Source: Halococcus qingdaonensis (GTDB lineage Archaea > Halobacteriota > Halobacteria > Halobacteriales > Halococcaceae). From it: a stretch of DNA of 64,000 nucleotides. The stretch spans positions 1,647,112 to 1,711,111 of the forward strand of contig NZ_CP101943.1 in the NCBI RefSeq assembly GCF_024508235.1. The letters run 5' to 3'. Positions 2,589 through 27,318 of the stretch are shown here, one piece after another (position 1 is the stretch's first letter; each line of letters begins with the position of its first letter). Both the position numbers and the translations under genes were made by a program. Below the pieces are notes generated by a model. It was given only the letters and a program-made list of their open reading frames with translations. It made no database searches and was not told where the DNA came from.

Positions 2589-2590
2589 GA

Positions 2591-6112: not shown

Positions 6113-6126
6113 AGTGCTGAGAAGTG

Positions 6127-8170: not shown

Positions 8171-10951
8171 GTAGTTCTCTGCCTCGTATTCCGGACGCAC
8201 GTACAGGCGCGGCGCTTGCCCGAGTTTCGAGCGGGAGGTCGTCTGGTTTTTCAGTGCGCGCCAGCACAGCGAATCGAGCCGCTTGACGTCCTCTTCGGTG
8301 AGGTTCGTCGCCTCTGCACCATTGTTGTCCACGAGTCCCCAGAATGGGTAGATGCCGTACTTGATGCGCTTGTCGTCGAGGTCGAAACCACCCTGTCGTG
8401 CCTCCTCACCGGTGGAAATGACGCTGGTGAGCGAGTCGTACTCCTCGTTGTCCTCGACCTCGTTCAGCGACTTCGCCGGAAGGAATTGCACCGGCCCCTG
8501 GTACTGACTTGGTAGTGCGCTACTGAGTGCTTGGCGGAGTCGTTCGTCTTCCTCCTCGTCGCTAGACTCGAAACTGAGCGTCGCGCCGAAGTACCGGACG
8601 TCAGTCGCTGTATCGAGGAATCGTTCGCCGATGTCCTCGATATCCTCAATATCGTCGGCGTCGTCGACCTCTTCGAGGACGTCCAGCGCGAGCGTCGTTC
8701 GAGGTCGGGCATCGCCGTCGAGTTTCTTCACGTAGATGTCGAAGCCGTCGTCAAGCAACTGATCCCGGAGGTAGCGCTTGAGACGGACGTCGGTGATGAT
8801 TCCCTTCCCCGTGTCCGGGTCACGCCGCGGTCGATTGTCGCCGATGGGGTTGCCATTTGGATTGCAGTCCTGTGCGTCGTAGACGAACAGCATCTCGGAT
8901 CGGTTGAGCGTCATGGGTGGATGTCGTGTGTTGGATTAGTTCGCGGGCGCTTCGGCGGTCGTATCGGATGAACCGTCATTGGTCTCCTGGAGGTCGAACG
9001 CGTTCGGCATCGACCGACGACCGTGTGCGTGACCGAGGACATAGGCGAACTGGAGGTCGCGCTTGTCGATGTCCCAGTCGGTTGGCATCTGCTTGGTCGT
9101 ATCGAGCAACCGGTCTACTGTCTCCGGGAACAGGATGTCGGAGTCGTACTCCGAATCGAACGCGTACACCTTCGCTTGTTCCAGTGCCGACTTCACTGCG
9201 TGTTCGAGACCGTTTTTCGTGAGTTGGTCGCCGCGCGTTTTCGAGTCGAGCGGACGACCGATATCGCGCGTGTGCTCCTGGTGCCAACTCACCTGGCCGA
9301 CGAGCACGCCCGCGAGTGCGGTGGCTCTTCGCTCGTCGTTTTCGATGAACAGCGGTCGGTCGAGGAACGATTCGAGTCGGTACTCGCGGATGGCCGCGAG
9401 GTCCGAGAGGTCGGTGTCCGTGTCGTCGATGGTATGTGTCATAGTGTGTGTATCAGCAGGTTCGACTGGCGCGTCGAGGCCGTCGAGCAGGCCTGCACGC
9501 GACAGTGATTCGAGGTGGATGAGTTGCTGTACGACCACCTGGTGTGGAACCGGATCGTCGCCGTCGAACTCGTCGCCGAAGCGCTGCATGTACTCCTCGA
9601 ACAGCATCGACGCATCGAGCGGCGTCCCGGCAATGAGTCGGTGGTCGACGACGCGGCGGAAGTCGTCGCCAGCCTCGTCGCGGTAGGCGAATGCAGCGTC
9701 GGTGAACTCGTGGCCGACGATCCGACCGAACGCGACGTTCCGTGCGGTGTCCGTCTCGTCGGGCAAATCGAGCAGATCCCAGTTGTCGTACTCGGCGAAC
9801 CCTCCTGCCTCGGGATCAAGTGTCGGGCCGTGAACCGTGTCCACGAGCGCCGCCGCGAGCTCGGAAACCCAGTAGACGGTCGCGGCTGGCTCCTCGGCGA
9901 TGACGTTCTTGTCGTCGCTGATCGGGAGCGATACCGTGTAGAAACGGAGCTCACGTTCGCCGAGATCCCGAATTTCTTCGTCTTCGTTCTCCTGGATTTG
10001 ATACGTGACCCGAGCCATCGGAGCGTTCGACGCGTCCGTGTGATCGCTGTCGGGATCGAGCGATTGGACGGCTCGGTATAGTGTCTCGGCTTTCAGTGGC
10101 GTGAACTCTCCCGCAAAGTACGGTATCGCGTACGTCTCCGTCCCGCCGCGACGGAAGACACATCGATCGATGAGATCCTGGCCCTTGCTGAACAACATCG
10201 CGACATCGTCGCTGACCGGATAGTTCCGCCACGATTGATCGCGTCGGAGACCTGGCTGTGCGTCCGGATGCTTGACCGAGAAGATTCCCAGCGGGCTCTC
10301 GGGTGTACCGACGACCCGTTCCATCTCACCGGTCACGACGCCGACCGCTTCGCCTTCGGAGGCGGGACCGGAGTCGATGTTCTTGTCCGTCGCGTTGGCC
10401 GTCGCGTATCGACGCATCGCCGTGTCGAGTACGTCGAGGTCGGCAGGCCAGAACCGTCGCACGTCATCGGCATCCGAGATTTCGAGGTTCGATCCGTCGA
10501 TTCGACAGCGAACGGTCATCACTGTCGGAACGGAATCATCGACGGATAGCAACGACTCGATGTCGTTGCTGATCCGTTCTAACGGCTCGCCGTCCTTGTC
10601 GAAAATCTCTGCAAGCCGTTCAATGATCCAACCATCTGGGTGGCTACCTTCCCCGGTTAGTGTCTGTATGCTATCCTGGGTTGGCCAACCAGCCAGCTTT
10701 CCAAGAGGACCATACTGGGTATCGGTTACACCACTTGCATCATTTCCCGTCTTTGAGCCTATCTGGGTGATGCTATACTTTGACCCCTGTCCCGAGGACT
10801 TGTGTGAATAGGCAAGCCGCGGAACATCGTCCGCGCGCAGCGCATCGACGTTAAGGTCAACGTACGCGGGTTCCACACCAGTTAGATCCACGTCGATAAC
10901 GATGAGCCGTCCATCGTCGACGAATGGATCGAGTTTGCTTGGTGTTCCATA

Positions 10952-11891
10952 GGCTCTGTTGAATCACTAGACGGCGTCGGGATCGGTCGCTAGATCAAAG
11001 GCATTGAAGCGAGAGACTTGCGTTGTCCATGACCCAAATCTCTCGCTTCACCGAGCGATGCGTCTTGGTCGCACAAAGAGTTACTGGCGATGGAAGCGAA
11101 TCCGCCGCCCCGAACGGTGGCGGCGGATTCGCCGATTACGCCCTCGTTTCCCTGCATTGTCTCCGGATTTACCTCGATACGTCCTACCGCATGACCATCG
11201 ATCTGCTGAAGGAGATGCCACAAATAACCCGGGAGATCGGCCTTGACGCGGCCGATCTCCCTGCACCGTCGACGTTGTGTAAAGCACTCGACCGAATCGA
11301 GATGAGCCTCTGTCGAGTGCTACTGCGCCAGTCGGCGCAGTTGCACGATCCGTCCAAACACGCTGCTCTCGACGCCACGTTCTACGACCGAGACCGCGCA
11401 AGCCGCCACTACTGCCAGCGCACGAACTACCGCGTGCAGACGCTTAAAGTCACGAAACTCGTCGATACAGAATCCCAAGCCGTCCTCGACGTTCACTGTT
11501 CGACCACACTCAAAGGAAGTGACGCCGACCTCTGCGAGCAGATCGCCCGCCGGAATGCGGGCGATCTGCGGACTCTCACTGCGGACAAAGGCTACGACAA
11601 GACCGCTCTCCGCGAACGGCTGCGTGAACTCGAGATCCGCCCGCTCATCAAGCACTGCATCCGCGCACCGTACGACCACGCCCATAACGCCCGAATCGAC
11701 GCGGATCTCTACGCACAGCGGTCGATGACCGAAACCGTGAATTCGGCCGTCAAGCGCTCGCTCGGCTACGCCGTGCGAGCGCGTACCTGGTTCCGTGAGT
11801 TTCGAGAGATTGCCCTGATGTGTATCGTCTACAACATCAAACGAGCAGTGAAACAGTGAATTCCATCGCCTTATGGCGATTCAACAGAGCC
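10952..11891 (+). mobile_element. IS5-like insertion element (940 bp) in cas8b
   Basis: Perfect 14-bp ends, ggctctgttgaatc at 10952-10965 and its complement at 11878-11891, bound the element. The 8-bp duplication gttccata lies at 10944-10951 and 11892-11899. Its transposase opposes the cas genes. The ends resemble those of the cas7 insertion (both share gctct-ttgaa), and both left ends contain acggcgtcgggat about 20 bases in (10971-10983 here, 7259-7271 there). They are therefore two members of one IS subgroup that landed independently. Confidence 0.95.
11029..11859 (+). CDS. IS5-family DDE transposase (cas8b insertion)
   Basis: This 276-residue protein starts at the ATG at 11029 (MTQISRFTERC); a TTG two codons earlier is less likely. 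The probable DDE triad is Asp115 (ALDATFYDRD), Asp186 (TADKGYDK) and Glu235 (SMTETVNSAVKR). The C-terminus WFREFREIALMCIVYNIKRA parallels the other transposase. It is the only gene of the 940-bp element and appears intact, so the element may still be mobile. Confidence 0.93.
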   Translation: MTQISRFTERCVLVAQRVTGDGSESAAPNGGGGFADYALVSLHCLRIYLDTSYRMTIDLLKEMPQITREIGLDAADLPAPSTLCKALDRIEMSLCRVLLRQSAQLHDPSKHAALDATFYDRDRASRHYCQRTNYRVQTLKVTKLVDTESQAVLDVHCSTTLKGSDADLCEQIARRNAGDLRTLTADKGYDKTALRERLRELEIRPLIKHCIRAPYDHAHNARIDADLYAQRSMTETVNSAVKRSLGYAVRARTWFREFREIALMCIVYNIKRAVKQ

Positions 11892-12027
11892 GTTCCATAC
11901 AGAGACCCACCGCTTTCGGCCACAGCCAGCACGCCGTACAGCGCCATGACGTCCTCCAGGCTGGCCGGTGGTCGGTCGTGCCAGTAGTCCGCGATGGCGT
12001 CGGCGAAGTCCTCGCGCGTGGGGCCAC

Positions 12028-12864
12028 TCATGTCGATTCCATCCGAGGTGGTGTTTTCTCGGTGATGTTCACGAATCCGAAGCCTAGCGAGTTGCGCTCG
12101 CCGATGCCACAATCCAGTGCGAGATTCAGATGCCGACGATGATGGTCGTCGCGCACCCGATAGCCGAGTCGCCACTTGCTCACGACGTAGGTCATCTCCT
12201 CGCCCTCGGTTACCGTCACCGGGAGCGCGAACGTCTTGATCAGTTCGTAGCTCTCGAACAGTTCGCCGTCGCGATCGCTCGGGCCGGGTAGATGGTCGGG
12301 CGCGAACCGACCGTGTTTCTTGTCGAGGTTCGCCACGATCTGGTTGCGGAACGGTTCCATCGTCATCTCCGGCCGCCAGAACGTCGCGTTGTCGCCGTAA
12401 TCGCCCTCGATCCCGTACTCCTCGCGTCGCCACGGCGGAATCCGCACCACTACTCCCGTGCCGGTCTCGATCACGCCCGAAGAGCCCGGCTCCCCCACGT
12501 CGGGTGCGAGCGCCGAGAGATCCTCGACCCGGTAGGGCATCTCGCCGATATTGAGCTCCGGCTCCGTCCGGAGATCGCGCGCGACGTGGGTCAACAGTTC
12601 CTCGTGGGGCGAGGCGACCAACAGCGTGCGCTCGTCACCCTCCTCCATATCGCCCGGCGGGAATGGGTTCGAGTAGGTGAACCCCGGCGGGTCGTTCCCG
12701 TCGTGGCGCTCCTCGAACTCGGTGCCCTCCAGCGCACGCCAGAGCCGTCCCCGGAGTTTGTGATGGTAGGCGTTGTCGTAGGCAGCGTCCGCGCGCACGC
12801 GCAATCTGGCTAACACCCGCACCCGTATCCCCCCGATCGATATCGCCGAATCATGATCCGCCAC
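12028..12864 (-). CDS. cas6: crRNA-processing endonuclease Cas6
   Basis: Cas6 cuts pre-crRNA within each repeat, leaving the 8-base 5' handle. The 278-residue protein has two RAMP folds. YHHKLRGRLW near residue 33 carries candidate catalytic histidines, and the C-terminal glycine-rich loop GIGERNSLGFGFVN is the family hallmark. It is the first gene of the cas operon; its TGA overlaps the cas8b ATG by 4 bases. It is intact, so crRNA maturation could continue even though Cascade assembly should not. The exact start within the first 15 codons is uncertain. Confidence 0.93.
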   Translation of the reverse strand: MADHDSAISIGGIRVRVLARLRVRADAAYDNAYHHKLRGRLWRALEGTEFEERHDGNDPPGFTYSNPFPPGDMEEGDERTLLVASPHEELLTHVARDLRTEPELNIGEMPYRVEDLSALAPDVGEPGSSGVIETGTGVVVRIPPWRREEYGIEGDYGDNATFWRPEMTMEPFRNQIVANLDKKHGRFAPDHLPGPSDRDGELFESYELIKTFALPVTVTEGEEMTYVVSKWRLGYRVRDDHHRRHLNLALDCGIGERNSLGFGFVNITEKTPPRMEST

Positions 12865-13000: not shown

Positions 13001-14386
13001 CTACTCGTCGGCCCGGCTGGCGTTCAGCTTGGCCTGCTCGCGCGCGCTCGGGTTCACGGACTCCTGGAACGGCACCTCGGAGACGGTCGCGTAGACCGGC
13101 TCACCGGGTTCCTCGGCGTACTCGTCGGGGAGATGCACCTCGAACTCGATATCGGCGTCGGCATCGTAGATGCTGTCGTCGAGCGGTGCGTCGAGCTCGC
13201 GCAGTTTTTCCGCCGGGACGTGCGCGAGCGCGATGTTGGTTTCCAGTTCTGGGCTGTACCACGGCGAGGTGACGTAGCCACACTCCTCGCCCGTCTCGGG
13301 ATCCGAGACGAGCCAGAAGTCGGGTGCGTAGTCACGGATCGGCTCGCCGGCCATCTTCAGCCCGATCAGCTTGTGCGTGAAGGGATACTCGCCGTTCTCG
13401 ACCTGTTCTTGCTGGCGTTCGAGTTCTTCTTTGCCGATGTAGTCGACGTCGGTCTCGTCGGGCACCTGATAGCCGAGATTGACCTGGAACGGCGAAGTCT
13501 CGTGATCCATGTCCTGGCCCCACGAGAGGATACCCGCCGCGATCCGCCGGTGGTGGCCCGGCGCGATCTGCATTCCGCCGTGGTCCTTCACCGTTTCGAG
13601 AACCGGATCCCAGACGGCCTCGGCGTTTGCCATCGCGTCCTTCACGTAGATCTCGAAGCCCTTCTCGCCGGAGAAGCCCGTCTGGCTCACGAGCACGTCA
13701 CAGCCGTTGACCTCGGCTTCCATCAGCCCGTAGTAGGGGATTTCCGAAACCTCCTCGCCGACGACCTCGACCATCACGTCCTCGGAGAGCGGCCCCTGGA
13801 TCTGCATCGGTGCGACGTCGATCTCGTCGATCGCGACGTCGTAGTTCTCGCCGACGTTCACACCCTGGAGCCACTGCATCAGAGTCGAATCGGAGATCGA
13901 GAACCAGAACTCGTCGTCGCCGGGCCGTAGCAACACCGGGTCGTTCAGGATGCCGCCGTCCTCGTTGCAGAGGATGACGTACTTGCCGTGCATTGTCTCG
14001 ATCTCGGTCGCGTCTCGGGTGATGACGCGGTTGACGAACGCCTCGGCGTCGGGCCCCGCGACGCGGATCTGGCGCTCGACGGCGACGTCCCACAGCGTGA
14101 CCCGGTTGACGAGGGCGTCGTACTCGGCCATCGCACCGCCATCTTCGGGTTCGACCAGCCCGCGGGGATGGTAGAGGCGGTTGTAGACCGTCGCGCGCCA
14201 CGCACCCTCCTCGTCGAAGGACTTGTGGAAGAAGGGCGACTTGCGAACGCGCGTCGAGACCAGCATCTCGATGCCGGGGTCGCCCGACTGGCGCAGGTTT
14301 CGTGGCACCGTTCGATCCGACTGATCGACGTTCGGGTGGTTCGGATGCTCCGCTCCGTCCGTTTTCGGTGGCTCGTTCTCGGACAT
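13001..14386 (-). CDS. DmdA/GcvT-like folate-dependent demethylase
   Basis: The 461-residue protein belongs to the GcvT fold, which moves a one-carbon unit from a substrate to tetrahydrofolate. The segment NEDGGILNDPVLLRPGDDEF followed by FSISDS is closer to DMSP demethylase DmdA than to glycine-cleavage GcvT, and the Asp in ILNDP is the conserved catalytic position. The C-terminal barrel domain is present (GLKMAGEPIRD ... CGYVTSPWYSPEL). It is divergent from fhs across 186 bases. With fhs, a MetF-like gene and two dimethylglycine/sarcosine dehydrogenase-like genes nearby, it probably makes methyl-tetrahydrofolate from a methylated osmolyte. Glycine betaine is my guess; DMSP or another methyl donor is possible. 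Confidence 0.82.
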   Translation of the reverse strand: MSENEPPKTDGAEHPNHPNVDQSDRTVPRNLRQSGDPGIEMLVSTRVRKSPFFHKSFDEEGAWRATVYNRLYHPRGLVEPEDGGAMAEYDALVNRVTLWDVAVERQIRVAGPDAEAFVNRVITRDATEIETMHGKYVILCNEDGGILNDPVLLRPGDDEFWFSISDSTLMQWLQGVNVGENYDVAIDEIDVAPMQIQGPLSEDVMVEVVGEEVSEIPYYGLMEAEVNGCDVLVSQTGFSGEKGFEIYVKDAMANAEAVWDPVLETVKDHGGMQIAPGHHRRIAAGILSWGQDMDHETSPFQVNLGYQVPDETDVDYIGKEELERQQEQVENGEYPFTHKLIGLKMAGEPIRDYAPDFWLVSDPETGEECGYVTSPWYSPELETNIALAHVPAEKLRELDAPLDDSIYDADADIEFEVHLPDEYAEEPGEPVYATVSEVPFQESVNPSAREQAKLNASRADE

Positions 14387-14411
14387 CCCCTTTCCCTACG
14401 ATCGATGGGTG

Positions 14412-14418
14412 CCTAAAT
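14412..14418 (-). promoter_or_regulatory. TATA box for the DmdA-like gene
   Basis: Minus-strand ATTTAGG is centred about 29 bases before the ATG at 14386, the spacing expected for a leaderless haloarchaeal transcript. Confidence 0.45.
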
Positions 14419-14510
14419 CGACCAGTTAAACGAGACACCCATTTATGTTCGTGAACGATTCGCACCGCCTCGCCGGCCGGGATTTCGGGCTCGCACGCGC
14501 CATCGGGACG

Positions 14511-14518
14511 TAAAAAGA
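14511..14518 (+). promoter_or_regulatory. Possible TATA box for fhs
   Basis: taaaaaga is the only AT-rich stretch before fhs. It lies about 58 bases ahead of the ATG at 14573, which would give a short untranslated leader of roughly 30 bases. Confidence 0.4.
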
Positions 14519-14572
14519 TAGCACGCACCGAACACGAACCTTGAAGCGACGGTCGGACGAACTCGAATCGAC

Positions 14573-16285
14573 ATGTCACCATCCGAAGACGGCCTGCCGA
14601 CGGACTACGAGATCGCCCAGGACGTCGACACCGACCACATCACCGAGATCGTCGAACCGCTCGGCCTCGCCGCCGACGACCTCGAGCTCCACGGCGACGA
14701 CACGGCGAAGCTCACCTACGACGCCATCGAGCGACTCCGGGAATCCGACCGTGAGGATGGTGACGTAATCCTCGTCACGGGGATGACGCCGACGCCGATG
14801 GGCGAGGGCAAGACCGTCACCACCGTAGGACTGAGTCAGGCGTTCAACCAGCTCGGCGAGAACGCACTGGCGGCCATCCGCGAGCCCTCGCTCGGCCCGG
14901 TCTTCGGCGTCAAGGGCGGCGCGGCCGGCGGTGGCTACTCCCAGGTACTGCCGATGGAGGAGATCAACCTCCACTTCACCGGCGATCTCCACGCGCTCAC
15001 GTCGGCGCACAACCTCGTCTCGACGATGCTCGACAACCATATCAAACAGGGAAACGAGCTGGGGATCGCCGTCAATCAGGTCCAATGGCCCCGTGCGATG
15101 GACATGAACGACCGCGTGCTCCGCGAGACCGTCGTGGGTCTCGGCGGCGAGGTCACGGGCGTCCCTCGCGAGGACGGGTTCATCCTCACGGCGGCCTCCG
15201 AGATGATGGCCGTGCTCTGTCTCGCCGACGACCTCGCCGATCTCAAGGAACGCGTCGGCCGAATCATCGTCGCCTACGACGAGGACGGCGACCCGGTCAC
15301 CGCCGACGACATCGAAGCTACCGGTGCGGTCACCATCCTGCTGAAGGACGCGCTCAAACCCAACATCGTTCAAACTGTCGAGGGAACGCCGGCGTTCGTT
15401 CACGGCGGTCCGTTCGCCAACATCGCCCACGGGACGAACTCGCTGATCGCCGACGACGCCGCCCGGAAACTCTCGGACTATCTCGTCACCGAGGCGGGCT
15501 TCGGCTCGGATCTGGGTGCCGAGAAATTCATGGACGTCGTCTGCCGTCTGGGCGACATGGAACCGGCGGCGGTCACGGTGGTAGCCTCTGTCCGTGCGCT
15601 CAAATACCATGGCAAGGACATGTGGCCCGCCGATCTCGACGCGCTCGACGAACCCGACCCCGAAGCGGTCGAGGCCGGGATCGAAAATCTCGATGCCCAC
15701 GTCGAAAACCTCCAGCAGTTCGGCGTCCCAGTCGTCGTGGCGCTCAACCGCTTCCCCGGCGACACCGACGAGGAAGTCGACGTCGTACTGGATCACTGCC
15801 GGGAGGACCTCGGGATCGAGGCCGCCGAATCGACGGTATTCGAGGAGGGCGGCGCGGGCGGGACCGACCTCGCCGAGAAGCTCATGACCGCCATCGAAAC
15901 GAACGACGAGACGTTCGACTATCTCTACGAGGCCGACGCCCCAATACCGGAGAAGATCGAGACGATCGCCACCGAGATCTACGGTGCGGAATCCGTCTCA
16001 TTCCAGAGCGGTGCACGCGACGACATCGATCGAATGAATGACCTCGGCTTCGAGGATGTCCCGATCGTGATTTCGAAGACCTTCCACTCGCTCAGCGACA
16101 ATGCCGAGAAGAAGGGCGTCCCCACCGGCTGGGAACTCGAGATTCAAGAGATCTACCCCTCCGCCGGCGCGGGCTTTCTCGTCGCCCTCACCAGCGACGT
16201 GCTGACGCTACCGGGGCTGCCGTCCGACCCTGCCGCTGCCGACATGGATATCGACGCCGAGGGAACGGTCTCCGGACTGTTCTGA
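14573..16285 (+). CDS. fhs: Formate-tetrahydrofolate ligase
   Basis: The enzyme joins formate and tetrahydrofolate at the cost of ATP, or runs backwards to make ATP and formate from 10-formyl-THF. The 570-residue protein carries the P-loop TPTPMGEGKTVTTVGLSQAF near residue 75 and the EPSLGPVFGVKGGAAGGGYS block, both diagnostic; the length matches the family (about 555-570). Divergent from the DmdA-like gene and convergent with the MetF-like gene, it is well placed to discharge one-carbon units released by the neighbouring demethylases and dehydrogenases. Haloarchaea use folate rather than tetrahydromethanopterin, so the assignment is consistent. Confidence 0.97.
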   Translation: MSPSEDGLPTDYEIAQDVDTDHITEIVEPLGLAADDLELHGDDTAKLTYDAIERLRESDREDGDVILVTGMTPTPMGEGKTVTTVGLSQAFNQLGENALAAIREPSLGPVFGVKGGAAGGGYSQVLPMEEINLHFTGDLHALTSAHNLVSTMLDNHIKQGNELGIAVNQVQWPRAMDMNDRVLRETVVGLGGEVTGVPREDGFILTAASEMMAVLCLADDLADLKERVGRIIVAYDEDGDPVTADDIEATGAVTILLKDALKPNIVQTVEGTPAFVHGGPFANIAHGTNSLIADDAARKLSDYLVTEAGFGSDLGAEKFMDVVCRLGDMEPAAVTVVASVRALKYHGKDMWPADLDALDEPDPEAVEAGIENLDAHVENLQQFGVPVVVALNRFPGDTDEEVDVVLDHCREDLGIEAAESTVFEEGGAGGTDLAEKLMTAIETNDETFDYLYEADAPIPEKIETIATEIYGAESVSFQSGARDDIDRMNDLGFEDVPIVISKTFHSLSDNAEKKGVPTGWELEIQEIYPSAGAGFLVALTSDVLTLPGLPSDPAAADMDIDAEGTVSGLF

Positions 16286-16303
16286 AGTGGTCGGCCGATC
16301 GCG

Positions 16304-17161
16304 TCACTCGTCGAGAACGCCGTAGCGCCACGACTCGGTGTCCTCGGTCCGGTTGAAAGTGTAGACGTGCAATCCCTGAATATCGTAGTCGGGATCGTCG
16401 GCGTACGGCGCGAGCCCCTCGACGAGATCGTCGGGGGTGTATCTGCCACGCGAACCGACGAGTTCGCGGATGAACCCCGTGATTCCGGTCGTTTTCTTGA
16501 GGAAATTCACCGAGTCGCCGACACCGACCTTCCGCGAGATGCTCAGCAGTTTGTCGTACTTCATCACACCAGGAATGCCGACCTCGATGGGGAGCTCGAC
16601 GCCCCTATCCCTCACACCCTCGACCCACTCGACGACGGCCTCGGGATCGTAACAGAGCTGTGTCACGATGTAGGTCGCGTAGGGTGCTTTCTTCGCCATC
16701 GCGTCGGCGAGCGTGTCGTCGTCGAGGAACTCGTGGCCCTCCGGGTAGCCCGTGATGCCGATCTCCTCGAACTCGTGATCGAGTCCGTCGAGCGCGTCGA
16801 GAAGGGCGTACGCCGAATCGAACTCGCCGATCGGCTCCTCGCGGTCGCCGCCGGGAACGAAGATATCGGTGACGCCGGCGTCGGTGAGCCGCCGAGTGAT
16901 TTCGTCCAGATGGTCGACGTCGCGGACGTAGCGCGCGGCGATGTGTGGGCTGACGTCGAACCCGCGAGCGGCGGCCGTCTCGGCCCACTCGACGGTCGCA
17001 TCGAGCCCCAGCTGCGGCGAGGTCGTGATGGCGATCGTCGCGCCCGTGGGAAGCTCATCCATCTCGTCCGCGAAGCTGTCGAACGGCATCAGCTCGAATC
17101 GCGGATCGTCAAGGAGTTGCGCGACGCCATCGGTCTCTCCCGACTGGCGCGTCACCGACAT
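16304..17161 (-). CDS. MetF-like methylenetetrahydrofolate reductase
   Basis: The 285-residue TIM-barrel protein matches the MTHFR family: ATIAITTSPQLGLD at the first strand, VTDIFVPGGDREEP, GITGYPEGH, TYIVTQLCYD and GIPGVMKYDKLL, all in MTHFR order. The family interconverts 5,10-methylene-THF and 5-methyl-THF; beside a methyl-THF-producing demethylase it may work in the oxidative direction. I start it at the ATG at 17161 (MSVTRQSGETDG); the frame is open to 17278, but that extension is basic and unlikely. It converges with fhs (18-base gap) and diverges from the first FAD-GcvT fusion gene. Confidence 0.85.
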   Translation of the reverse strand: MSVTRQSGETDGVAQLLDDPRFELMPFDSFADEMDELPTGATIAITTSPQLGLDATVEWAETAAARGFDVSPHIAARYVRDVDHLDEITRRLTDAGVTDIFVPGGDREEPIGEFDSAYALLDALDGLDHEFEEIGITGYPEGHEFLDDDTLADAMAKKAPYATYIVTQLCYDPEAVVEWVEGVRDRGVELPIEVGIPGVMKYDKLLSISRKVGVGDSVNFLKKTTGITGFIRELVGSRGRYTPDDLVEGLAPYADDPDYDIQGLHVYTFNRTEDTESWRYGVLDE

Positions 17162-17426
17162 GGATCGTCCGTACCTCCCGAAACCACGGAGTGCGTTTCG
17201 GACGCGTCTCGCCCCGCCTCGAACGCAAACATTGTGAGAGAATAGCAGTATCGCACGTTTAGCTCTTGGCCGGCACAACCGAAACGGTATAAGTCGGGGT
17301 CGGCAGTCGAATCACGCGATTCGTACCGAACATAGGAATCAGTCGTCGGTCGGACGATCCCGGATAAACAGGAGTAGCAGTGAGGGCGAAGAATGAATAT
17401 CCCCGGCCGAGATCGAAACGGCAGCC

Positions 17427-20003
17427 ATGAGTCATGCCAACGGGCTGCCCGACGCAGCCGGAACCGTCGTCATCGGCGCGGGCATCGTCGGCTGTAGCAC
17501 GGCCTATCACCTCGCCGAACTGGGTCGGGAAGATGTTCTGGTACTCGACCGGGGCCCGCTGCCGACCACCGGCGGCTCCTCGACACACGCGCCGGGGATC
17601 ATGTTCCAGACCGACGAGCCGAAGGTGCTCTCGAAATTCGCCACCTACAGCCGGAAGTTGTACTCCGGTCTGGAGCGCGACGACGGGAAAGCGATCTACA
17701 ACGAAACCGGCGGGATCGAGGTCGCGCGCAGCGACGAGCGGATGGACTACCTCCAACGGCGGGTCGAGTGGGCGAAAGCGTGGGGCGTGCCCGATCCGCA
17801 GCTCCTGAGCCCCGAGGAAGTCGCGGAAAAGCTCCCGCTCGTGGATCCCGACGCCATCCAGGGCGGCTACTACTCGCCGACGGACGGACAGGCATCGGGT
17901 GTTCGTGCGTGTGCGGCGCTCGCCGAGCAAGCGGAGGCGATGGGCGCGGAGTTCGTCGGCCACACGAAAGTCGAGGACATCGAGGCCGACGGTGAGGGAG
18001 TACAGGGGATCGTCACCGAGAACGGTCGCGTCGAGTGCAATGAGGTCGTGGTAGCGACCAACATCTGGGCGCGCCAGCTGAGCGAGAAACTCGACGTCCA
18101 TCTCCCGGTCGCACCGGTCGAACACCAGTACACGATGACCGAACCGCTCGCCGAACTCGACGGGCGAGAACAGGACGTCACCGACGATCCGGTCTACGAG
18201 AACTACAAGTCGGTCTCCGGCGACAAGAGCGAGGTGCTCCTCCAGGACCCCGACCGACCGATACTGCGGGACCAGGACAACGCGATGTACTTCCGAACGC
18301 ACGGGGACCGCTACGGGATCGGCTCGTACAACCACGAGCCGGTCGTGCCCGATCCGGAGGAATTGGGTGGGAACGACGAGGACGGCGGCAATCAGGCGTC
18401 GATCCACGAGTTCACCGAGGAGTTCTTCGAGAACGCTACCCACCCCGATCGCCAGGAGAAGGCTCCCCGAACCGCGAGCGACGAGCTCCTGCCGGCGACG
18501 GCGGGGAAGGATCTGGACTACAAGTACAACGGGATGTACTCCGCGTCGCCGAACGGAATGCCGACGATGGGGCCTGTCCAGGAGTGTCCGGGGCTCTGGA
18601 CGGGGCTCACCACGTGGATCACTCACGCCGGCGGCGCGGGCAAGGCGCTCGCCGAGTGGATGGAGACCGGCGTCCCGCGGCTGCCCGACGGCCCGATCGA
18701 CCTCCGGAACTGCGACGTCAACCGGTTCGCACCCCACACGGGGAGCTGGGACTTCACGCGTGACCTCGCTGACGAGGAGTATCGCAACCTCTACAGCATC
18801 GTCCATCCGAAGTGGGTCCGAACCGAGTACCAGCGCGACATCCGGCGCACGCCGATCTATCACAGTCATCAGGATTTGGACGCCGAGCTGTGGGCCGAGG
18901 CCGGCTGGGAGTCCCCACAGTGGTTCGAATCCAACGAGGATCTCTTGGAGAGCTACGGCGAGCAGATCCCCGATCGCGAGGGTTGGGAGGGCAAGTTCTG
19001 GTCGCCGCTCGAAGGCGCGGAGTCGCTCCACGTCCGAGAGGCCGTCGGGCTCCACGACATGACCCCGTTCAACAAGATGGAGCTCGTCGGCACAGGTGTA
19101 GACGAGTTCCTCCAAAACCTCTGTACGAACGACATGGACCTCGACGTGGGACAGATCCGCTACACACTCATGTGTAACGAAGCCGGCGGCGTCCGCGCCG
19201 ATATCACCGTGACCCGCGTCGACGAGCACCGATACCTGCTGCTCACGACCGGTCGCGAGGTCGGGCAGAACCACCTCGCGTGGGTCCGCGAGCAGGCCCC
19301 CGAGAGCGTAGTTGTCAACGACGTCACCTCCAGCCTGGCGGCGATGGTCTGTACGGGCCCGGACGCCCGCAAGACCCTCTCGAAGGTGATCGACGCCGAC
19401 CTCTCGGATGAAAACTTTCCGTTCTACACGAGCCAGCAGACGTTCGTGGAGAACGTCCCCGTGACGGCGCTCAGACTCTCCTACGCCGGCGAGCTCGGCT
19501 GGGAGCTCTACACGCCGTCCGAGTACGGCGAGACGCTTTGGGAGCACGTCATGGAGGCAGGCGCGGAGTACGACATCCGCCCCTACGGCAACGGCGCGCT
19601 CGACTCGCTCCGCATCGAGAAGGGATTCAGACTCTGGGGCGAGGACCTCCACACCGAGCACGACCCCTACGAAGCGGGCCTCGGCTGGGCCGTCGATCTC
19701 GACACGGAGTTCGTCGGCAAGGAAGCGATCGCGGCGGCCGCCGAGGGCGACGTCGATCGGAGAGTGGCCTGTCTCACGCTCGACGACCCCGAGCAGGTCG
19801 TGCTCGCCGACCGGCCCGTTCTCACGTCCAACGGTGACGAAGTGCTCGGCTACGTCCACGCCGCCGAATACGGCTACACCGTCGGGGCCTGCGTCGTCTA
19901 CACCTACCTCCCGCCCGAATTCGCCGAACCGGGAACCGAGGTCGACGTGCTCTACGAGGGCGAGCGCTACGGGGCGACGGTGCGCGACGAACCGCTGTTG
20001 TAG
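17427..20003 (+). CDS. FAD oxidoreductase-GcvT fusion, dimethylglycine/sarcosine dehydrogenase type (copy 1)
   Basis: The 858-residue protein has an N-terminal DAO-type FAD domain (GTVVIGAGIVGCSTAYHLAE, residues 11-30), an FAO-type linker, and a GcvT domain plus C-terminal barrel from about residue 465. STHAPGIMFQT near residue 53 aligns with the WHAAGL region whose His binds FAD covalently in mammalian dimethylglycine dehydrogenase. The GcvT part keeps the catalytic Asp in AGGVRADITV. Such enzymes oxidise an N-methyl group and pass it to tetrahydrofolate as 5,10-methylene-THF. Compared with copy 2 it carries about 24 extra residues in the FAD half, so the two probably differ in substrate. 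Confidence 0.88.
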   Translation: MSHANGLPDAAGTVVIGAGIVGCSTAYHLAELGREDVLVLDRGPLPTTGGSSTHAPGIMFQTDEPKVLSKFATYSRKLYSGLERDDGKAIYNETGGIEVARSDERMDYLQRRVEWAKAWGVPDPQLLSPEEVAEKLPLVDPDAIQGGYYSPTDGQASGVRACAALAEQAEAMGAEFVGHTKVEDIEADGEGVQGIVTENGRVECNEVVVATNIWARQLSEKLDVHLPVAPVEHQYTMTEPLAELDGREQDVTDDPVYENYKSVSGDKSEVLLQDPDRPILRDQDNAMYFRTHGDRYGIGSYNHEPVVPDPEELGGNDEDGGNQASIHEFTEEFFENATHPDRQEKAPRTASDELLPATAGKDLDYKYNGMYSASPNGMPTMGPVQECPGLWTGLTTWITHAGGAGKALAEWMETGVPRLPDGPIDLRNCDVNRFAPHTGSWDFTRDLADEEYRNLYSIVHPKWVRTEYQRDIRRTPIYHSHQDLDAELWAEAGWESPQWFESNEDLLESYGEQIPDREGWEGKFWSPLEGAESLHVREAVGLHDMTPFNKMELVGTGVDEFLQNLCTNDMDLDVGQIRYTLMCNEAGGVRADITVTRVDEHRYLLLTTGREVGQNHLAWVREQAPESVVVNDVTSSLAAMVCTGPDARKTLSKVIDADLSDENFPFYTSQQTFVENVPVTALRLSYAGELGWELYTPSEYGETLWEHVMEAGAEYDIRPYGNGALDSLRIEKGFRLWGEDLHTEHDPYEAGLGWAVDLDTEFVGKEAIAAAAEGDVDRRVACLTLDDPEQVVLADRPVLTSNGDEVLGYVHAAEYGYTVGACVVYTYLPPEFAEPGTEVDVLYEGERYGATVRDEPLL

Positions 20004-20080
20004 CCATGTTTGTCGATTTCTCGACGATTCGTCGCCGCGCACCGACGGACTACTAAACGGCTGTGGTAGTCCACCCCGTC

Positions 20081-20088
20081 TTTTAAAC
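20081..20088 (+). promoter_or_regulatory. TATA box for the second FAD-GcvT gene
   Basis: ttttaaac lies about 28 bases before the ATG at 20113 in a 109-base gap. It implies that the second fusion gene and the dehydratase behind it can be transcribed without copy 1, as a leaderless message. Confidence 0.55.
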
Positions 20089-20112
20089 CCACGACGGCGG
20101 AAGCCACACGGC

Positions 20113-22617
20113 ATGAGCACAGGGACCACACTGCCGGAGAGCGCCGGGACCATCGTCGTGGGGGCCGGCTGCGTCGGCTGTTCGGCGGCCTACCACCTCG
20201 CCGAGCAGGGCCGCGAGGACGTCGTCGTCGTGGATCGCGGACCGCTGTTCGAGACTGGCGGCTCGACCTCGCACGCGCCCGGACTCGTCTATCAGACCAA
20301 CGGCGGCAAACTGATGACGGAGTTGGCCGCGTACACGCGCGAACTCTATTCCGATCTCGACAGCTACCGGATGTCGGGCGGCATCGAGGTCGCCTATACC
20401 GAGGACCGATGGAAGTTCCTCAAACGAAAGCGCGAGTGGGGCCAATCCTACGGGCTTGACGGTGGCGAACTGCTCTCGCCCGCGGAGGTCGAAGAGCGCG
20501 TCCCGCAGATCGATTCGACCGTGATCCACGGTGGCTACTACCTCCCGACCGACGGCAAGGCCCACGCGGTCGACGCCTCGCGGAAGATGGCCGAGCGCGC
20601 CCAGGAGGTCGGCCACGAATTCTACGGCAACACGCTCGTCACGGACGTCGAGACGAGTGACGGGGCGGTCCAGGCGGTCGTCACCGAGAACGGCCGCATC
20701 GCATGCGACGAGCTGCTGGTGGCGACGAACATCTGGGGCCCGCTCTTTGGGGATATGATCGACACCGACATCCCGCTGGTTCCGTGTTCACATCAGTATC
20801 TCGTGAGCGAACCGCTCGACGAACTGGTGGGAGCCGAGCGCGAGATCGAACAGCCGCTCCTCCGTCATCAGGATTATTCGGAGTATTTCCGCCAGCACGG
20901 CGACTCCTATGGAGTGGGATCGTACAACCACGAACCGCTGCTCGTCGATCCCGAGGACATCTACGGACCCGAGAAACTCGACGACCTCGGGCTCGAATAC
21001 CCCTCGCTCCGGGAGTTCGCCGCCGAGCACTTCTACGAGAACACGCATCCCGATCACGACGAGAGCGCGTACGACGCCGCACGCGAACTCGTACCGGCGC
21101 TCGACGGCGTCGAGTGGGAGACCGAGATGAACGGGATGTTCTGCTTCACTCCCGACGGAATGCCGATTCTCGGCCCGGACGAGGACACCGAGGGACTGTG
21201 GTGGTCGCTCGCCATCTGGGTCACCCAGTCTGGCGGCGTCGGCAGCGTCGTCGCCGAGTGGATGGAAAATGGAGTTCCGCGGCTCGACGGCGAGCGCGTC
21301 AACGCCGAGCCCGCCCACATCAGTCGGTTTCAGCCCCACGCCGGCAGTCGGGAGTTCACCTACGGGCGGGGTGCCCAGCAGTATCAGGAGGTCTACCAGC
21401 TGATCCATCCGCGTGAACAGCCCGAAGACCAGCGTGCGCTCCGCCGGAGCCCGTTCTACGACCGACAGGACGACCTCGGCGCGGAGTTCTACGACACCAA
21501 CGGCTGGGAAGTTCCCCAGTGGTACGAGACGAACGAGTCCCTCCTGAGCGAGTACGAGGTCCCCGACAGACCCGACTGGCTCGCGCGCAACTGGTCGAAG
21601 GCGCAGGGCGTCGAACACCAGGCCGTCCGTGATCGAGTGGCGATGTTCGACATGACGACGTTCACCGGGATCGAGATCGCCGGCGAGGGCACGATGGAGT
21701 TCCTCCAAGAGCTCTTGACCAACGACATGGACTGCCCAGTCGGACGGATGCGGTACGCGGCGATGCTGAACGAAGACGGCGGCATCCTCGCGGATCTGAC
21801 CGTCGCACGGCTCGACGAAGATCGGTATCTGCTGACGACGGGCGGCGGCAACTCCGCGACGCTCCACTCGCGCTGGATCCGCGAGCACGCGCCCGAATCG
21901 CTCTCGATCACGGTTCACGATTCGAGCCGTTCCGGAGTGGGCGTCTGGGGGCCGGAAGCACGGGAACTGCTCGGACCGCTCGTCGAGGCGGACCTCTCGA
22001 ACGACGCCTTCCCGTTCTACGGGGTGCAAGAAACCTATCTGGAGAGCCTGCCAGTGACGATGCTTCGGCTCTCCTACGCCGGCGAACTCGGCTGGGAGAT
22101 CTACACACCCACCGAGTACGGCGCGCGGCTCTGGGACACCCTCTGGGAAGCGGGCCAGGAGCATGGGATCGTCCCGATGGGCTGGGAGGCGCTCGCCTCG
22201 GCGAGTCTGGAGAAGGGCTATCGGCTCTGGGGCACGGACGTCACGCCCGAATACACGCCCGACGAGGCGGGTATCGGCTTCGCGGTCGACACCGATACCG
22301 AGTTCATCGGGAAGGACGCGCTGCTCGCGGCGCGCGAGGCGGGCGTCGACCGAAAGCTTACTCCGCTCACGCTCGATGGATCGGGAATGATCGTTGATTC
22401 GGGTCATCCGATCCTCGACGGTGAGGACGTGATCGGCTACGGCTGTCGCGCCGGCTACGGCTACAGCATCGACGCGGGCATCGTCTACTCGTACCTGCCG
22501 ACCGAGTACGCCGACGCGGGGACGTCGCTCGACGTGCGCTACGAGGGCGAGCGCTACGCCGCGACGGTGCGCGACGAGCCGCTGTTCGACCCCGAGATGG
22601 AACGGATGCGCGGGTAG
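20113..22617 (+). CDS. FAD oxidoreductase-GcvT fusion, dimethylglycine/sarcosine dehydrogenase type (copy 2)
   Basis: This 834-residue paralogue of the preceding gene shows the same order: FAD-binding GTIVVGAGCVGCSAAYHLAE (residues 11-30), a candidate covalent-FAD His in TSHAPGLVYQT, then GcvT with GGILADLTVARLDEDRYLL carrying the catalytic Asp, then the barrel ending RYEGERYAATVRDEPLFD. The ATG at 20113 is chosen because homology to copy 1 begins there and a TATA box sits 28 bases ahead; the frame itself is open further upstream. Stepwise oxidation of dimethylglycine to sarcosine and sarcosine to glycine by the two copies is a reasonable inference, but which does which cannot be told here. 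Confidence 0.88.
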   Translation: MSTGTTLPESAGTIVVGAGCVGCSAAYHLAEQGREDVVVVDRGPLFETGGSTSHAPGLVYQTNGGKLMTELAAYTRELYSDLDSYRMSGGIEVAYTEDRWKFLKRKREWGQSYGLDGGELLSPAEVEERVPQIDSTVIHGGYYLPTDGKAHAVDASRKMAERAQEVGHEFYGNTLVTDVETSDGAVQAVVTENGRIACDELLVATNIWGPLFGDMIDTDIPLVPCSHQYLVSEPLDELVGAEREIEQPLLRHQDYSEYFRQHGDSYGVGSYNHEPLLVDPEDIYGPEKLDDLGLEYPSLREFAAEHFYENTHPDHDESAYDAARELVPALDGVEWETEMNGMFCFTPDGMPILGPDEDTEGLWWSLAIWVTQSGGVGSVVAEWMENGVPRLDGERVNAEPAHISRFQPHAGSREFTYGRGAQQYQEVYQLIHPREQPEDQRALRRSPFYDRQDDLGAEFYDTNGWEVPQWYETNESLLSEYEVPDRPDWLARNWSKAQGVEHQAVRDRVAMFDMTTFTGIEIAGEGTMEFLQELLTNDMDCPVGRMRYAAMLNEDGGILADLTVARLDEDRYLLTTGGGNSATLHSRWIREHAPESLSITVHDSSRSGVGVWGPEARELLGPLVEADLSNDAFPFYGVQETYLESLPVTMLRLSYAGELGWEIYTPTEYGARLWDTLWEAGQEHGIVPMGWEALASASLEKGYRLWGTDVTPEYTPDEAGIGFAVDTDTEFIGKDALLAAREAGVDRKLTPLTLDGSGMIVDSGHPILDGEDVIGYGCRAGYGYSIDAGIVYSYLPTEYADAGTSLDVRYEGERYAATVRDEPLFDPEMERMRG

Positions 22618-22621
22618 TTCG

Positions 22622-23845
22622 ATGAGCGAGTCAGTCACCTTCGCCGACATCGAGGCGGCCCGCGAGCGCCTCGACGACGAGTCGGTCGTCAAACGAACCC
22701 CCGTCGAGCGGAGCACCTCGCTCGGCGAACTGACCGACAGCGAGGTCCACCTGAAGATGGAACACCTCCAGTGGACCGGCTCGTTCAAGACGCGCGGTGC
22801 GTACAACAAGATCGCACAGCTCGTCGAGGACGGGGGGACCGATCGCGTGGTCGCCGCGAGCGCCGGCAACCACGCCCAGGGGGTCGCGCTTGCGGCGACG
22901 ACACTCGGCATCGACGCCACGATCGTGATGCCGAAGGCCGCCCCGCAGGCGAAAGTCGACGCGACGCGTGGCTACGGCGCGCGGGTCGAACTCGTCGGTC
23001 AGGACTTCCAGGCGGCGATGGATCACGCTCAGGGGCTCGTCGACGACGAGGCGACCGCGTTCGTCCACGCCTACGACGACCCCGCGATCGTCGCTGGACA
23101 GGGAACGTTGGGGATCGAGATGTACGAGGACTGCAACGTCGACACCGTCATCGTCCCGATCGGCGGTGGCGGGCTGATCTCGGGCATCGCGACCGCGATG
23201 AACAAGCTCTCGCCGGGAACGCGCGTCGTCGGCGTGCAGGCCGAAGGGGCTGCCACAGTACCGGACAGCCTCGACAAGGGGATTCCAGTCACGCTCGATT
23301 CGGTCAACACCATCGCCGACGGGATCGCCACCGGTGGGATCTCGGAGCTCACCCTCTCGCTCATCGAGGAACACGTCGACGAGATCGTCACCGTGACCGA
23401 CGGCGAGATCGCCCGTGCCGTGCTCCTGCTCATGGAGCGTGCCAAACAGGTCGTCGAGGGGGCCGGCGCGGCGTCGGTCGCCGCCCTGCTGAGTGAGGAT
23501 CTCGACGTCGAGGGCGAGACGGTGTTCGCGCTGCTGTGCGGGGGGAACCTCGACATGACGATGCTGCGCACGGTGTTGATCCACGCGCTCACCGACCGCG
23601 AGCAGATCCTCCGCCTGCGCGTGCGCATCACCGACCGCCCCGGCGAGATGAACACGATATCGAGCATCATCGGCGGCCACGGTGCTAACATCCGCAGCGT
23701 GCGCCACGACCGCTCGGTGCCCGAACTCGACGTCGGCGAGGCCTACCTCGTCTTCGAGATCGAAACCAGCGGCACCGGCCACGCACGCACCGTCATCCGG
23801 TCGATCCGCGATCGCGGCTACGAGGTCAGCCACGAGAACGCCTGA
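22622..23845 (+). CDS. ilvA: Threonine/serine dehydratase with ACT domain
   Basis: The 407-residue PLP enzyme deaminates threonine to 2-oxobutyrate or serine to pyruvate. GSFKTRGAYNKI near residue 55 holds the PLP lysine, SAGNHAQGVA and the phosphate loop GGGGLISGIA follow, and the C-terminus is an ACT regulatory domain (RVRITDRPGEMNTISSIIGG). It begins 4 bases after the second FAD-GcvT gene and is almost surely co-transcribed with it. That pairing suggests a catabolic job: glycine from demethylation could become serine and then pyruvate. Biosynthetic threonine deaminase for isoleucine is the alternative. Confidence 0.92.
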   Translation: MSESVTFADIEAARERLDDESVVKRTPVERSTSLGELTDSEVHLKMEHLQWTGSFKTRGAYNKIAQLVEDGGTDRVVAASAGNHAQGVALAATTLGIDATIVMPKAAPQAKVDATRGYGARVELVGQDFQAAMDHAQGLVDDEATAFVHAYDDPAIVAGQGTLGIEMYEDCNVDTVIVPIGGGGLISGIATAMNKLSPGTRVVGVQAEGAATVPDSLDKGIPVTLDSVNTIADGIATGGISELTLSLIEEHVDEIVTVTDGEIARAVLLLMERAKQVVEGAGAASVAALLSEDLDVEGETVFALLCGGNLDMTMLRTVLIHALTDREQILRLRVRITDRPGEMNTISSIIGGHGANIRSVRHDRSVPELDVGEAYLVFEIETSGTGHARTVIRSIRDRGYEVSHENA

Positions 23846-23940: not shown

Positions 23941-25275
23941 ATGAACGTCGGCATCGACGCGGTCGCCATCCACGCCGGAAAGCTCAGGCTCGACCTCGCG
24001 GAGACGCTCGCCCCCGCGCTGGACGAGGAGCCCGAGAAGTTCACGAAGGGGCTCGGCCTCCACGCGAGTTCGTTCCCCGATGTCGAGGAGGACATCGTGA
24101 CGATGGGCGCGAACGCCGCGCACAAACTGATGGAGCGCAAGGGGCTCACCCCTGACGACATCGGCCGGATCGACGTCGCCACCGAGAGCGCCTTCGACAA
24201 CGCCAAACCCGTCTCGACGTACGTCGCGGGCTGTCTCGAACAGGTCTACGACGAGGACTTCCACCACGCGAACAAGGGCGAGCGCAAGTTCGCGTGCATC
24301 GCGGGCACACAGAGCCTCGACGACGCCTACAACTGGATCCGCGCCGGGCGCAATCGCGGCCGCGCGGCGCTCGTGATCGCCACCGACACCGCCCTCTACG
24401 CGCGCGGCGACGCCGGCGAGGCGACGCAGGGCGCGGGCGCGGTGGCGATGCTCATCGCCGAGAACCCTGACCTCGTCGAAATGAGCGTCGAACAGGGGTT
24501 CGGCAGCGCCGACGAGACCGACTTCCTCAAGCCGAACCAGCAGTTCCCGAGCGTCGACGGCCAGCGCTCGGTCCAGGTCTATCTCGCGCGGATGCGCGAA
24601 GCCCTGGAGGACTACGAGAGCGTCGCCGAGGAGACCCATCCCGACCAGTTCGAGTATATCCCGTTCCACACGCCGTTCCCCGGCATGGTCAGGAAGGCCG
24701 CGCTGCTCGGCTACCGCCACATGATCCGTAACACCGAGATCGAGGCCGACCTCACCGCAGCGATCGGCGAACAGCCCCGACCCGACGGCTTCGACGACGA
24801 AGCACAGTACCGCGACGCCGTCCGCGACTACATGGACGCGCTGAAGGAAACCGACGCGTACGCGGCGTGGTACGACGACACGATCGAGCCGACGCTCGAC
24901 ATCGCCCGTCACGTCGGCAACTGGTACACCGGCTCGGTCCACGTCGCCCGCGCGAGCGCGCTCCGCAGCGCCCGCGAGGCGGGGATCGACATGACCGGCA
25001 AATCGCTGCTGCTTGGCTCCTATGGCAGCGGCGCACAGGCCGAGATCCACGTCGAAACGGTTCAAGAGGAGTGGACCGAGGAGATCGACGCGCTCGACAT
25101 CGACGAGCAGCTGGCCGAGCGCCGCGACATCTCCTTCGCGGAGTACGAAGAGATCCACGACGTCCACAACCACGACAAGGAGATCGACATCGACGCGTTC
25201 ACCACCCCGAGCGAGGAGTTCGTCCGCGACGGCTCCGGCCCGATGGACGAACGGACCTACCGCTACGTCGAGTAG
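23941..25275 (+). CDS. mvaS: Hydroxymethylglutaryl-CoA synthase
   Basis: The enzyme condenses acetyl-CoA with acetoacetyl-CoA to HMG-CoA, the entry to the mevalonate route for archaeal lipids and carotenoids. The 444-residue thiolase-fold protein carries the nucleophilic Cys in KFACIAGTQSL near residue 120, the His in EYIPFHTPFPGMVRKA, and the C-terminal GLY-rich LLLGSYGSGAQAE. The length and order match haloarchaeal MvaS. It converges with a broken membrane-protein gene, with a hairpin between them. Confidence 0.95.
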   Translation: MNVGIDAVAIHAGKLRLDLAETLAPALDEEPEKFTKGLGLHASSFPDVEEDIVTMGANAAHKLMERKGLTPDDIGRIDVATESAFDNAKPVSTYVAGCLEQVYDEDFHHANKGERKFACIAGTQSLDDAYNWIRAGRNRGRAALVIATDTALYARGDAGEATQGAGAVAMLIAENPDLVEMSVEQGFGSADETDFLKPNQQFPSVDGQRSVQVYLARMREALEDYESVAEETHPDQFEYIPFHTPFPGMVRKAALLGYRHMIRNTEIEADLTAAIGEQPRPDGFDDEAQYRDAVRDYMDALKETDAYAAWYDDTIEPTLDIARHVGNWYTGSVHVARASALRSAREAGIDMTGKSLLLGSYGSGAQAEIHVETVQEEWTEEIDALDIDEQLAERRDISFAEYEEIHDVHNHDKEIDIDAFTTPSEEFVRDGSGPMDERTYRYVE

Positions 25276-25918: not shown

Positions 25919-27318
25919 CAGTACCTCACAAAGTCGGTTAGTGGAAACGTCCGCTTGCTGGAGATGTGCCTGACTCGCAGCAAGCAGACGACGAAATACA
26001 CGAAGACCAGCTCCTTAATTTCCTCGTCAATACACTCACCGGCGCGTTTAGTCTAAATCTCGGTGAGAATGCCGATATCGATGCCGAGGACATCTTCGAG
26101 GTCCTCGTCGGCGCGTGCGCCGACGGGACCTCTGTCTCCGAGCTTTGTGACGTCAGCAAGGATGCACCTCCTGCGACGAATATTCTCTACCACCTCCGCT
26201 CGAAGTTCGACTTCGACACCGTCGCTTCCGTCGGTAATCTCCTCCTTCAGCGAGATGTGATCGAACATCTCCCAGAGCAGGTGGAGGTCGTCGTGGACCT
26301 CCACCTGCGGCCCTACTACGGCGATGAAGACGAAACAAGCGGCCTCTACCACTCCGAGGCCAAAGCCGGAACCACCGCCTTCCATGCCTATGCCACCCTC
26401 TACGCGCGGGTGCGCAACAAGCGCTACACCCTGGCGGTGCGCCGTCTCGAAGACGGCGACACCGCCAGTTCCGTCCTCGCGGAGTTCCTCGGTGTTCTCG
26501 AAGGCCTTGACCCCGAGGTCAAGGCCGTCTACCTCGACCGCGGGTTCTACGACGGCAAGTGCCTCACGCTGCTTCAGGCGCACAACTACGCCTACGTCAC
26601 ACCGGTCGTGAAGTGGGGCGAGGCGATCCAAGAGGAACTTGACCAGGGATGGAGCCGCACCATCGAACACGACCTCACCACAGAATTCGACGGTCACGAG
26701 TGGACCGTCGAATTCCCGGTCTACATCGACTGCACCTACCAGAACGGCCGATACGACGAACATGGCGTGGCGCGTCACGGCTACGCCGTCGACGCGTCGT
26801 TTATCGACACACCGCGTCAGGCTCGTCAGCACTACAGCAAGCGCTTCGGCATCGAATCAAGCTACCGTCTCTCGGAGAAGACGACGATTTCCACCACGAC
26901 ACGTGATGCAACACAGCGGCTGCTGTTCGTCGTGATCAGCCTCTTGTTCCAGAACGTGTGGCGGTATCTCCACTGGGAGTATGTGGCGACGCCGCGCCGT
27001 GGCGGGCGTCGCCTCTGGAAGTGGTCGTTCGAGGAGTTCATCGACATGGTAACCCGGGCAGCGTGGACGGCTCTCGCGGTGCGTCGGGCCGTCCCCGCGA
27101 ACAGACCGCCCGACGATCGCTTCGAACGGTAATCCACCGACCGGGAACGCCCGGCCGATGAGTGGCAACATCGTCGCGTCGGCGGCGTTCCGCCGCCGAC
27201 TGCGACAGGTTTGACGCTCTCAGTGCCGAACCGCCTTCCTCAGCAGTTTCTCGGCACTAGTTTCTCCACCAGATTCATGTCTCAGAAGCAGTCAACTGGC
27301 GAGCTTTGTGAGGTACTG
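25919..27318 (+). mobile_element. ISH3-family insertion element (1400 bp)
   Basis: Perfect 15-bp inverted ends, cagtacctcacaaag at 25919-25933 and its complement at 27304-27318, are flanked by a 5-bp duplication, atact, at 25914-25918 and 27319-27323. The single transposase and the 5-bp duplication are characteristic of ISH3 (ISH27/ISH51) elements. It sits after the fifth codon of a small membrane-protein gene. Confidence 0.95.
25966..27132 (+). CDS. ISH3-family transposase
   Basis: The 388-residue DDE transposase has the ISH3 signature. Likely catalytic acids are the Asp in VVVDLHLRPYYG, the Asp in YLDRGFYDGKC and the Glu in RFGIESSYRL. The start is a GTG at 25966. The frame is complete and the length normal for the family (about 385-390), so the element may be active. 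Its GC content and acidity match the host, which suggests long residence in haloarchaea. Confidence 0.94.
   Translation: MPDSQQADDEIHEDQLLNFLVNTLTGAFSLNLGENADIDAEDIFEVLVGACADGTSVSELCDVSKDAPPATNILYHLRSKFDFDTVASVGNLLLQRDVIEHLPEQVEVVVDLHLRPYYGDEDETSGLYHSEAKAGTTAFHAYATLYARVRNKRYTLAVRRLEDGDTASSVLAEFLGVLEGLDPEVKAVYLDRGFYDGKCLTLLQAHNYAYVTPVVKWGEAIQEELDQGWSRTIEHDLTTEFDGHEWTVEFPVYIDCTYQNGRYDEHGVARHGYAVDASFIDTPRQARQHYSKRFGIESSYRLSEKTTISTTTRDATQRLLFVVISLLFQNVWRYLHWEYVATPRRGGRRLWKWSFEEFIDMVTRAAWTALAVRRAVPANRPPDDRFER

Follow-up and report, generated by a model that had tools for sequence, protein, structure and literature searches.

The 64,000-nucleotide stretch of DNA analysed here (the window) lies within a 2.70 Mb haloarchaeal genome (one contig, 95% complete) and contains a cluster of six genes which the preliminary description had assigned to a folate-linked pathway from betaine to pyruvate. 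Domain and NCBIfam profile matches recovered every one of these genes, each with a named family (Table 1). The gene of the DmdA/GcvT-like protein (hereafter P0001) diverges from the FHS gene, and a second divergent pair is formed by the MetF-like gene (minus strand) and FAD-GcvT 1 (plus strand, from 17427), the latter opening a plus-strand run of FAD-GcvT 1, FAD-GcvT 2 and the ammonia-lyase, in which the last two genes are separated by 4 bases. The start of the MetF-like protein was placed by its homologues at the ATG at 17161 (listed ORF, 16304-17278), while the true start of FAD-GcvT 2 was read as the ATG at 20113 (the mechanical ORF begins at 19834).

Table 1. Features of the P0001 gene cluster (positions in the window; cut-offs are those of the respective models).
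Feature	Position	Strand	Evidence
P0001, DmdA/GcvT-like, proposed glycine betaine:THF methyltransferase	13001-14386	-	461 aa; GCV_T + GCV_T_C
Intergenic region between P0001 and fhs (divergent), probably a control region	14387-14572	.	186 bases; position only
Formate--tetrahydrofolate ligase (FHS)	14573-16285	+	NF010030, 805 bits (cut-off 652)
MetF-like protein, S6MTHFR type	16304-17161	-	Pfam MTHFR, 43.6 bits (cut-off 24)
FAD-GcvT fusion 1, dimethylglycine oxidase/dehydrogenase type	17427-20003	+	858 aa; DAO, FAO_M, GCV_T, GCV_T_C
FAD-GcvT fusion 2, dimethylglycine oxidase/dehydrogenase type	20113-22617	+	834 aa; DAO, FAO_M, GCV_T, GCV_T_C
Threonine/serine ammonia-lyase (PALP + ACT)	22622-23845	+	TIGR01127, 452.7 bits (cut-off 378.75)

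An HMG-CoA synthase gene (23941-25275) was also considered as a member of the pathway and rejected, since its product passes the haloarchaeal HMG-CoA synthase model and the gene was linked to P0001 in one of the 46 loci described below; an ISH3-family transposase gene (25966-27132) is located immediately downstream of it. Elsewhere in the window there is a type I CRISPR-Cas set (cas1, cas3, cas5, cas7, TM1802-type cas8, and cas6; 1593-12864, minus strand) and, about 28 kb from P0001, a gene of the sodium:neurotransmitter symporter family (42316-43743, minus strand), a possible osmolyte carrier.

Both FAD-GcvT proteins match the dimethylglycine oxidase of Arthrobacter (1pj5) over nearly their whole length (573 bits for FAD-GcvT 1 and 608 bits for FAD-GcvT 2) and retain the GGSTxHAPG histidine, taken here as the flavin attachment site. 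The whole architecture is common to these two proteins, the Arthrobacter enzyme and mammalian DMGDH. The acceptor of the two proteins may be oxygen or an electron carrier, and, judging from sequence, either of them could be the one that takes dimethylglycine or the one that takes sarcosine.

The MetF-like protein gave a profile match to 7xg9, the S6MTHFR of Sphingobium SYK-6, with an E-value of 1.3e-55 (next best, 3e-18), and Foldseek likewise placed the SYK-6 MTHFR (7xg9/7xlf) first, with canonical MTHFRs far behind. S6MTHFR is reported to oxidise 5-methyl-THF as a partner of the GcvT-type O-demethylase LigM (PMC12585457), and ligM, metF, and ligH constitute an operon in SYK-6 (PMC6888825). 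By analogy with S6MTHFR, the direction from methyl- to methylene-THF, which had been ascribed to the MetF-like protein beforehand, gains support. The LigM-MetF-LigH system, as described in PMC6888825 and PMC12585457, resembles the cluster in bringing together a GcvT-type THF-dependent demethylase, a dedicated MTHFR and a formate-THF ligase. However, LigM acts on aromatic methoxy substrates and resembles P0001 only remotely in the fold search, whereas the partners found here are enzymes of the dimethylglycine/sarcosine type.

The conservation of the cluster was assessed in 46 haloarchaeal loci, each of at least 20 kb, in which genes located up to 10 kb from P0001 were counted, and in 20 arbitrary 20-kb control windows from six P0001-bearing genomes. 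The conserved linkage anticipated for haloarchaeal genomes was found: P0001 was accompanied by MetF-like (40 loci), FAD-GcvT (24), PALP (21), BCCT (20), FolD (17), FHS (13), GlyA (10), and FDH (7) genes, whereas the control windows contained a single BCCT gene and none of the others. P0001 itself was present in 39 of the 194 sampled haloarchaeal genomes (14 genera), and the MetF-like protein occurred in the same 39 and in one further genome, i.e., in 39/39 genomes with P0001 versus 1/155 without it (Fisher p 3e-40, a value inflated by the relatedness of the genomes). As the linkage is repeated in many haloarchaea but not in random windows, and P0001 and the MetF-like protein co-occur, the clustering is not a matter of chance. 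The presence of FolD, GlyA, and BCCT genes near P0001 in the relatives means that the steps missing from the present cluster, as well as the transporter, are linked there. The nearby BCCT transporter that had been looked for was thus located in relatives and also in the genome itself. Of the three BCCT genes present there, two are located 0.9-7.4 kb ahead of the window start, and the CRISPR-Cas set lies between this pair and P0001. Four of the 46 loci, including two of Haloquadratum, had no pathway neighbour at all.

Several other genes recur in these neighbourhoods. An HTH_10 regulator was encoded near P0001 in 28/46 loci (e.g., L041:7957-8622) versus 2/20 control windows, and in the genome under study such a gene (L169:5473-6117) adjoins a BCCT gene. 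In 22/46 loci, P0001 was also accompanied by the gene of a conserved haloarchaeal protein (about 390 aa; L045:15310-16485 and homologues) that lacks a Pfam match. AstE/AspA-like and creatininase-like genes were recurrent as well (10/46 loci each; L057:13971-15768 and related), a hint that creatinine or creatine may enter the route at sarcosine. In some loci, pabAB and FolC/FolP genes were found near P0001.

Among named organisms, Halococcus morrhuae and H. thailandensis have the proteins closest to P0001 (97-98% identity), followed by those of many haloarchaea (76-98%) and, at about 59-68% identity, of Roseovarius and other Alphaproteobacteria, Gemmatimonadota, Gammaproteobacteria, Vicinamibacteria, and Kocuria. 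The P0001-family gene was frequent in one, probably marine, family of Alphaproteobacteria, whose genomes are small (0.7-1.4 Mb) and rich in AT (fetched loci, 31-35% GC); 46 of 52 genomes of this family carry it (about 59-64% identity). All 16 loci fetched from this group (11-20 kb) displayed the same order, soxB-soxD-soxA-soxG-DMGDH-MetF-P0001. Kocuria has the order MetF-P0001-FHS, and P0001 adjoins a FAD-GcvT gene in Gemmatimonadota and Gammaproteobacteria. A comparable arrangement was published for SAR11, in which the gene of a DmdA-related aminomethyltransferase (SAR11_1265), its substrate left open, is adjacent to metF (SAR11_1264) (PMC3160333). SAR11_1265 was considered as a possible counterpart of P0001, but the published gene order of HTCC1062 is unlike that of the 16 loci. 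Upstream of soxB in the alphaproteobacterial operon there is also a gene of a conserved 276-aa protein (L257:223-1053; homologues in at least 13 of the 16 loci, L253-L268), which has no Pfam match, carries an HxD...H pattern and is possibly an Fe(II)-dependent oxygenase.

To our knowledge, the first demethylation of betaine has been described for a Rieske monooxygenase, for BHMT and for corrinoid methyltransferases. Profile searches of the genome under study (95% complete) with PF00848 (Ring_hydroxyl_A), PF06253 (MTTB), and PF02574 (S-methyl_trans) returned no match, while the same searches gave matches in control genomes. The absence of Rieske and corrinoid systems, previously stated for the locus, therefore holds genome-wide at the family level, and a dedicated betaine demethylase elsewhere in the genome, the possibility raised against the initial reading, was not found among the GbcA-type Rieske, MttB/MtgB, and BHMT families.

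Other haloarchaea do carry a GbcA-like Rieske oxygenase, and its distribution was compared with that of P0001. Close FAD-GcvT genes were present in 45 haloarchaeal genomes, 30 with P0001 and 15 without it. The Rieske gene was found in 14 of the 15 genomes lacking P0001, as opposed to 8 of the 30 having it (p 2.3e-5, likewise inflated by genome relatedness), so that 44/45 of the FAD-GcvT genomes had one gene or the other. In three loci of such genomes without P0001 (L178, L181, and L185) the Rieske gene was placed inside the same cluster. The best NCBIfam match of these proteins is GbcA, although far below the cut-off, and betaine is their presumed substrate. The GbcA/GbcB glycine betaine monooxygenase carries out the same step as that proposed for P0001, i.e., betaine to dimethylglycine, but it is an unrelated protein and depends on oxygen. 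Such alternation would be expected of one step performed by two chemistries; the eight genomes with both genes could reflect different oxygen conditions or different substrates.

Taken together, the cluster probably encodes a folate-linked catabolism of betaine to pyruvate begun by P0001 as a glycine betaine:THF methyltransferase. Glycine betaine would enter the cell through the BCCT transporters whose genes lie shortly before the window, and P0001 would pass one methyl group of this compound to THF, which would yield dimethylglycine and 5-methyl-THF. Judging from its closest solved relative, the S6MTHFR-type MetF may convert the latter to 5,10-methylene-THF, and the FAD-GcvT pair, on the strength of its homology, would oxidatively demethylate dimethylglycine and sarcosine, loading further methylene-THF. 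FolD and a reverse FHS reaction could release formate with formation of ATP, and glycine would be converted via GlyA to serine and by the dehydratase to pyruvate, FolD and GlyA being absent from this cluster but linked in the relatives. The direct betaine:THF methyltransferase postulated at the outset is supported by the linkage, by the BCCT genes and by the absence of the known families, betaine itself being suggested by the genomic context. This reading is also favoured by the way in which P0001 and the Rieske gene alternate, by the oxidising direction of the MetF relative and by the dimethylglycine/sarcosine operon of bacteria. It is weakened by the four loci with no pathway neighbour, by the eight genomes with both candidates, by the low GbcA scores of the Rieske proteins and by 9 of the 39 P0001 genomes that had no FAD-GcvT relatives at E 1e-180 (a threshold which leaves distant ones possible), as well as by the report that growth of H. 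walsbyi was not enhanced by betaine (PMC3102087).

The same nine genomes would also fit a P0001 transferring the methyl group of another onium compound (proline betaine, carnitine, choline, or TMAO) to THF, with the FAD-GcvT genes co-located through the common folate one-carbon outlet. The substrate is not readable from the sequence, and BCCT carriers also transport carnitine and choline. Nevertheless, the linkage of P0001 to dimethylglycine/sarcosine enzymes in haloarchaea and bacteria alike, its linkage to GlyA and the dehydratase, which provide an outlet for glycine, and the alternation with the GbcA-like Rieske gene all point to a product becoming dimethylglycine and make such a substrate rather unlikely.

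Still less probable, in our opinion, is DMSP as the substrate of P0001, or a compound formed from it, e.g., MMPA, which has been suggested as substrate for a related SAR11 gene (PMC3160333). DmdA is the nearest solved relative of P0001 by sequence, and the predicted structure (mean pLDDT 84.8) gave DmdA (3tfh) as its best match in the fold search, followed by GcvT. P0001 and DmdA are alike in the GcvT fold, in the residues of the folate site (DmdA E204 and Y206 are retained in the alignment as E245 and Y247) and, as proposed for P0001, in passing an onium methyl group to THF. The best NCBIfam match of P0001 is also DmdA (NF009133), but its 237.9 bits stay below the cut-off of 410; the GcvT model (TIGR00528) gave 138.6 bits (cut-off 235.85), and the genome has a separate, stronger GCV_T gene at C1:1761865. 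In the phylogenetic tree, P0001 and DmdA fall into separate clades, each with 100/100 support, and Roseovarius genomes contain a true DmdA (680-692 bits) alongside a P0001-family gene (247-268 bits). Moreover, DmdA R194, W/Y197, K199, E238, and Y247 correspond to Q235, F238, G240, R280, and W289 of P0001, and are replaced throughout the family. The residue at position 197, part of the DMSP site (W171 in the alignment numbering of PMC7487153), was treated there as key for DMSP, and true DmdA of roseobacters has Y, not W, at this position. On the grounds of the model cut-off, the separate clade, the replaced residues and the coexistence with true DmdA, the assignment of P0001 as DmdA was rejected, and its linkage to glycine-forming, not DMSP, genes argues in the same direction.

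It is equally improbable that the main role of P0001 and MetF is to provide biosynthesis with one-carbon units, the role of LigM and S6MTHFR in SYK-6: the kinship of the MetF-like protein with S6MTHFR, which belongs to a module for one-carbon supply, and the pabAB and FolC/FolP neighbours agree with it, but the separate GcvT gene suggests another one-carbon source, the linkage to BCCT, FHS, FDH, and dehydratase genes fits catabolism, and a methyl donor would still be required.

Returning to the betaine reading, we consider it reasonably likely, if with a little more reserve than for the pathway as such, that P0001 is the first representative of a family of glycine betaine:THF methyltransferases that are independent of O2 and cobalamin, come paired with a MetF dedicated to methyl-THF oxidation and extend over haloarchaea, Roseovarius, Kocuria, Gemmatimonadota, and most of the sampled members of the small-genome alphaproteobacterial family. 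No report of a betaine:THF methyltransferase was found in the open-access literature (subscription journals being mostly outside the coverage), and the literature searched, mainly open-access, yielded no earlier report of the family proposed for the first step, of an S6MTHFR-type MetF paired with it or of its alternation with the Rieske gene. The downstream half is anticipated by a study of 2011, which noted dimethylglycine oxidase-like genes near BCCT genes in haloarchaea, without an enzyme for the first step (PMC3102087).

If the proposal is true, a direct THF methyltransferase conserves the methyl group as 5-methyl-THF and needs neither O2 nor B12, which would suit oxygen-poor brines. In saline waters, glycine betaine ranks with the most abundant osmolytes, and the gene pair beside the DMGDH/sarcosine oxidase operon of small-genome Alphaproteobacteria would, on the same condition, extend the pathway beyond brines. 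Some haloarchaea (G081, G101, G132, G136, G141, and G163) possess a second P0001 paralogue (68-72% identity), perhaps with another substrate, and in one locus this copy (L030:11831-13159) directly adjoins the first.
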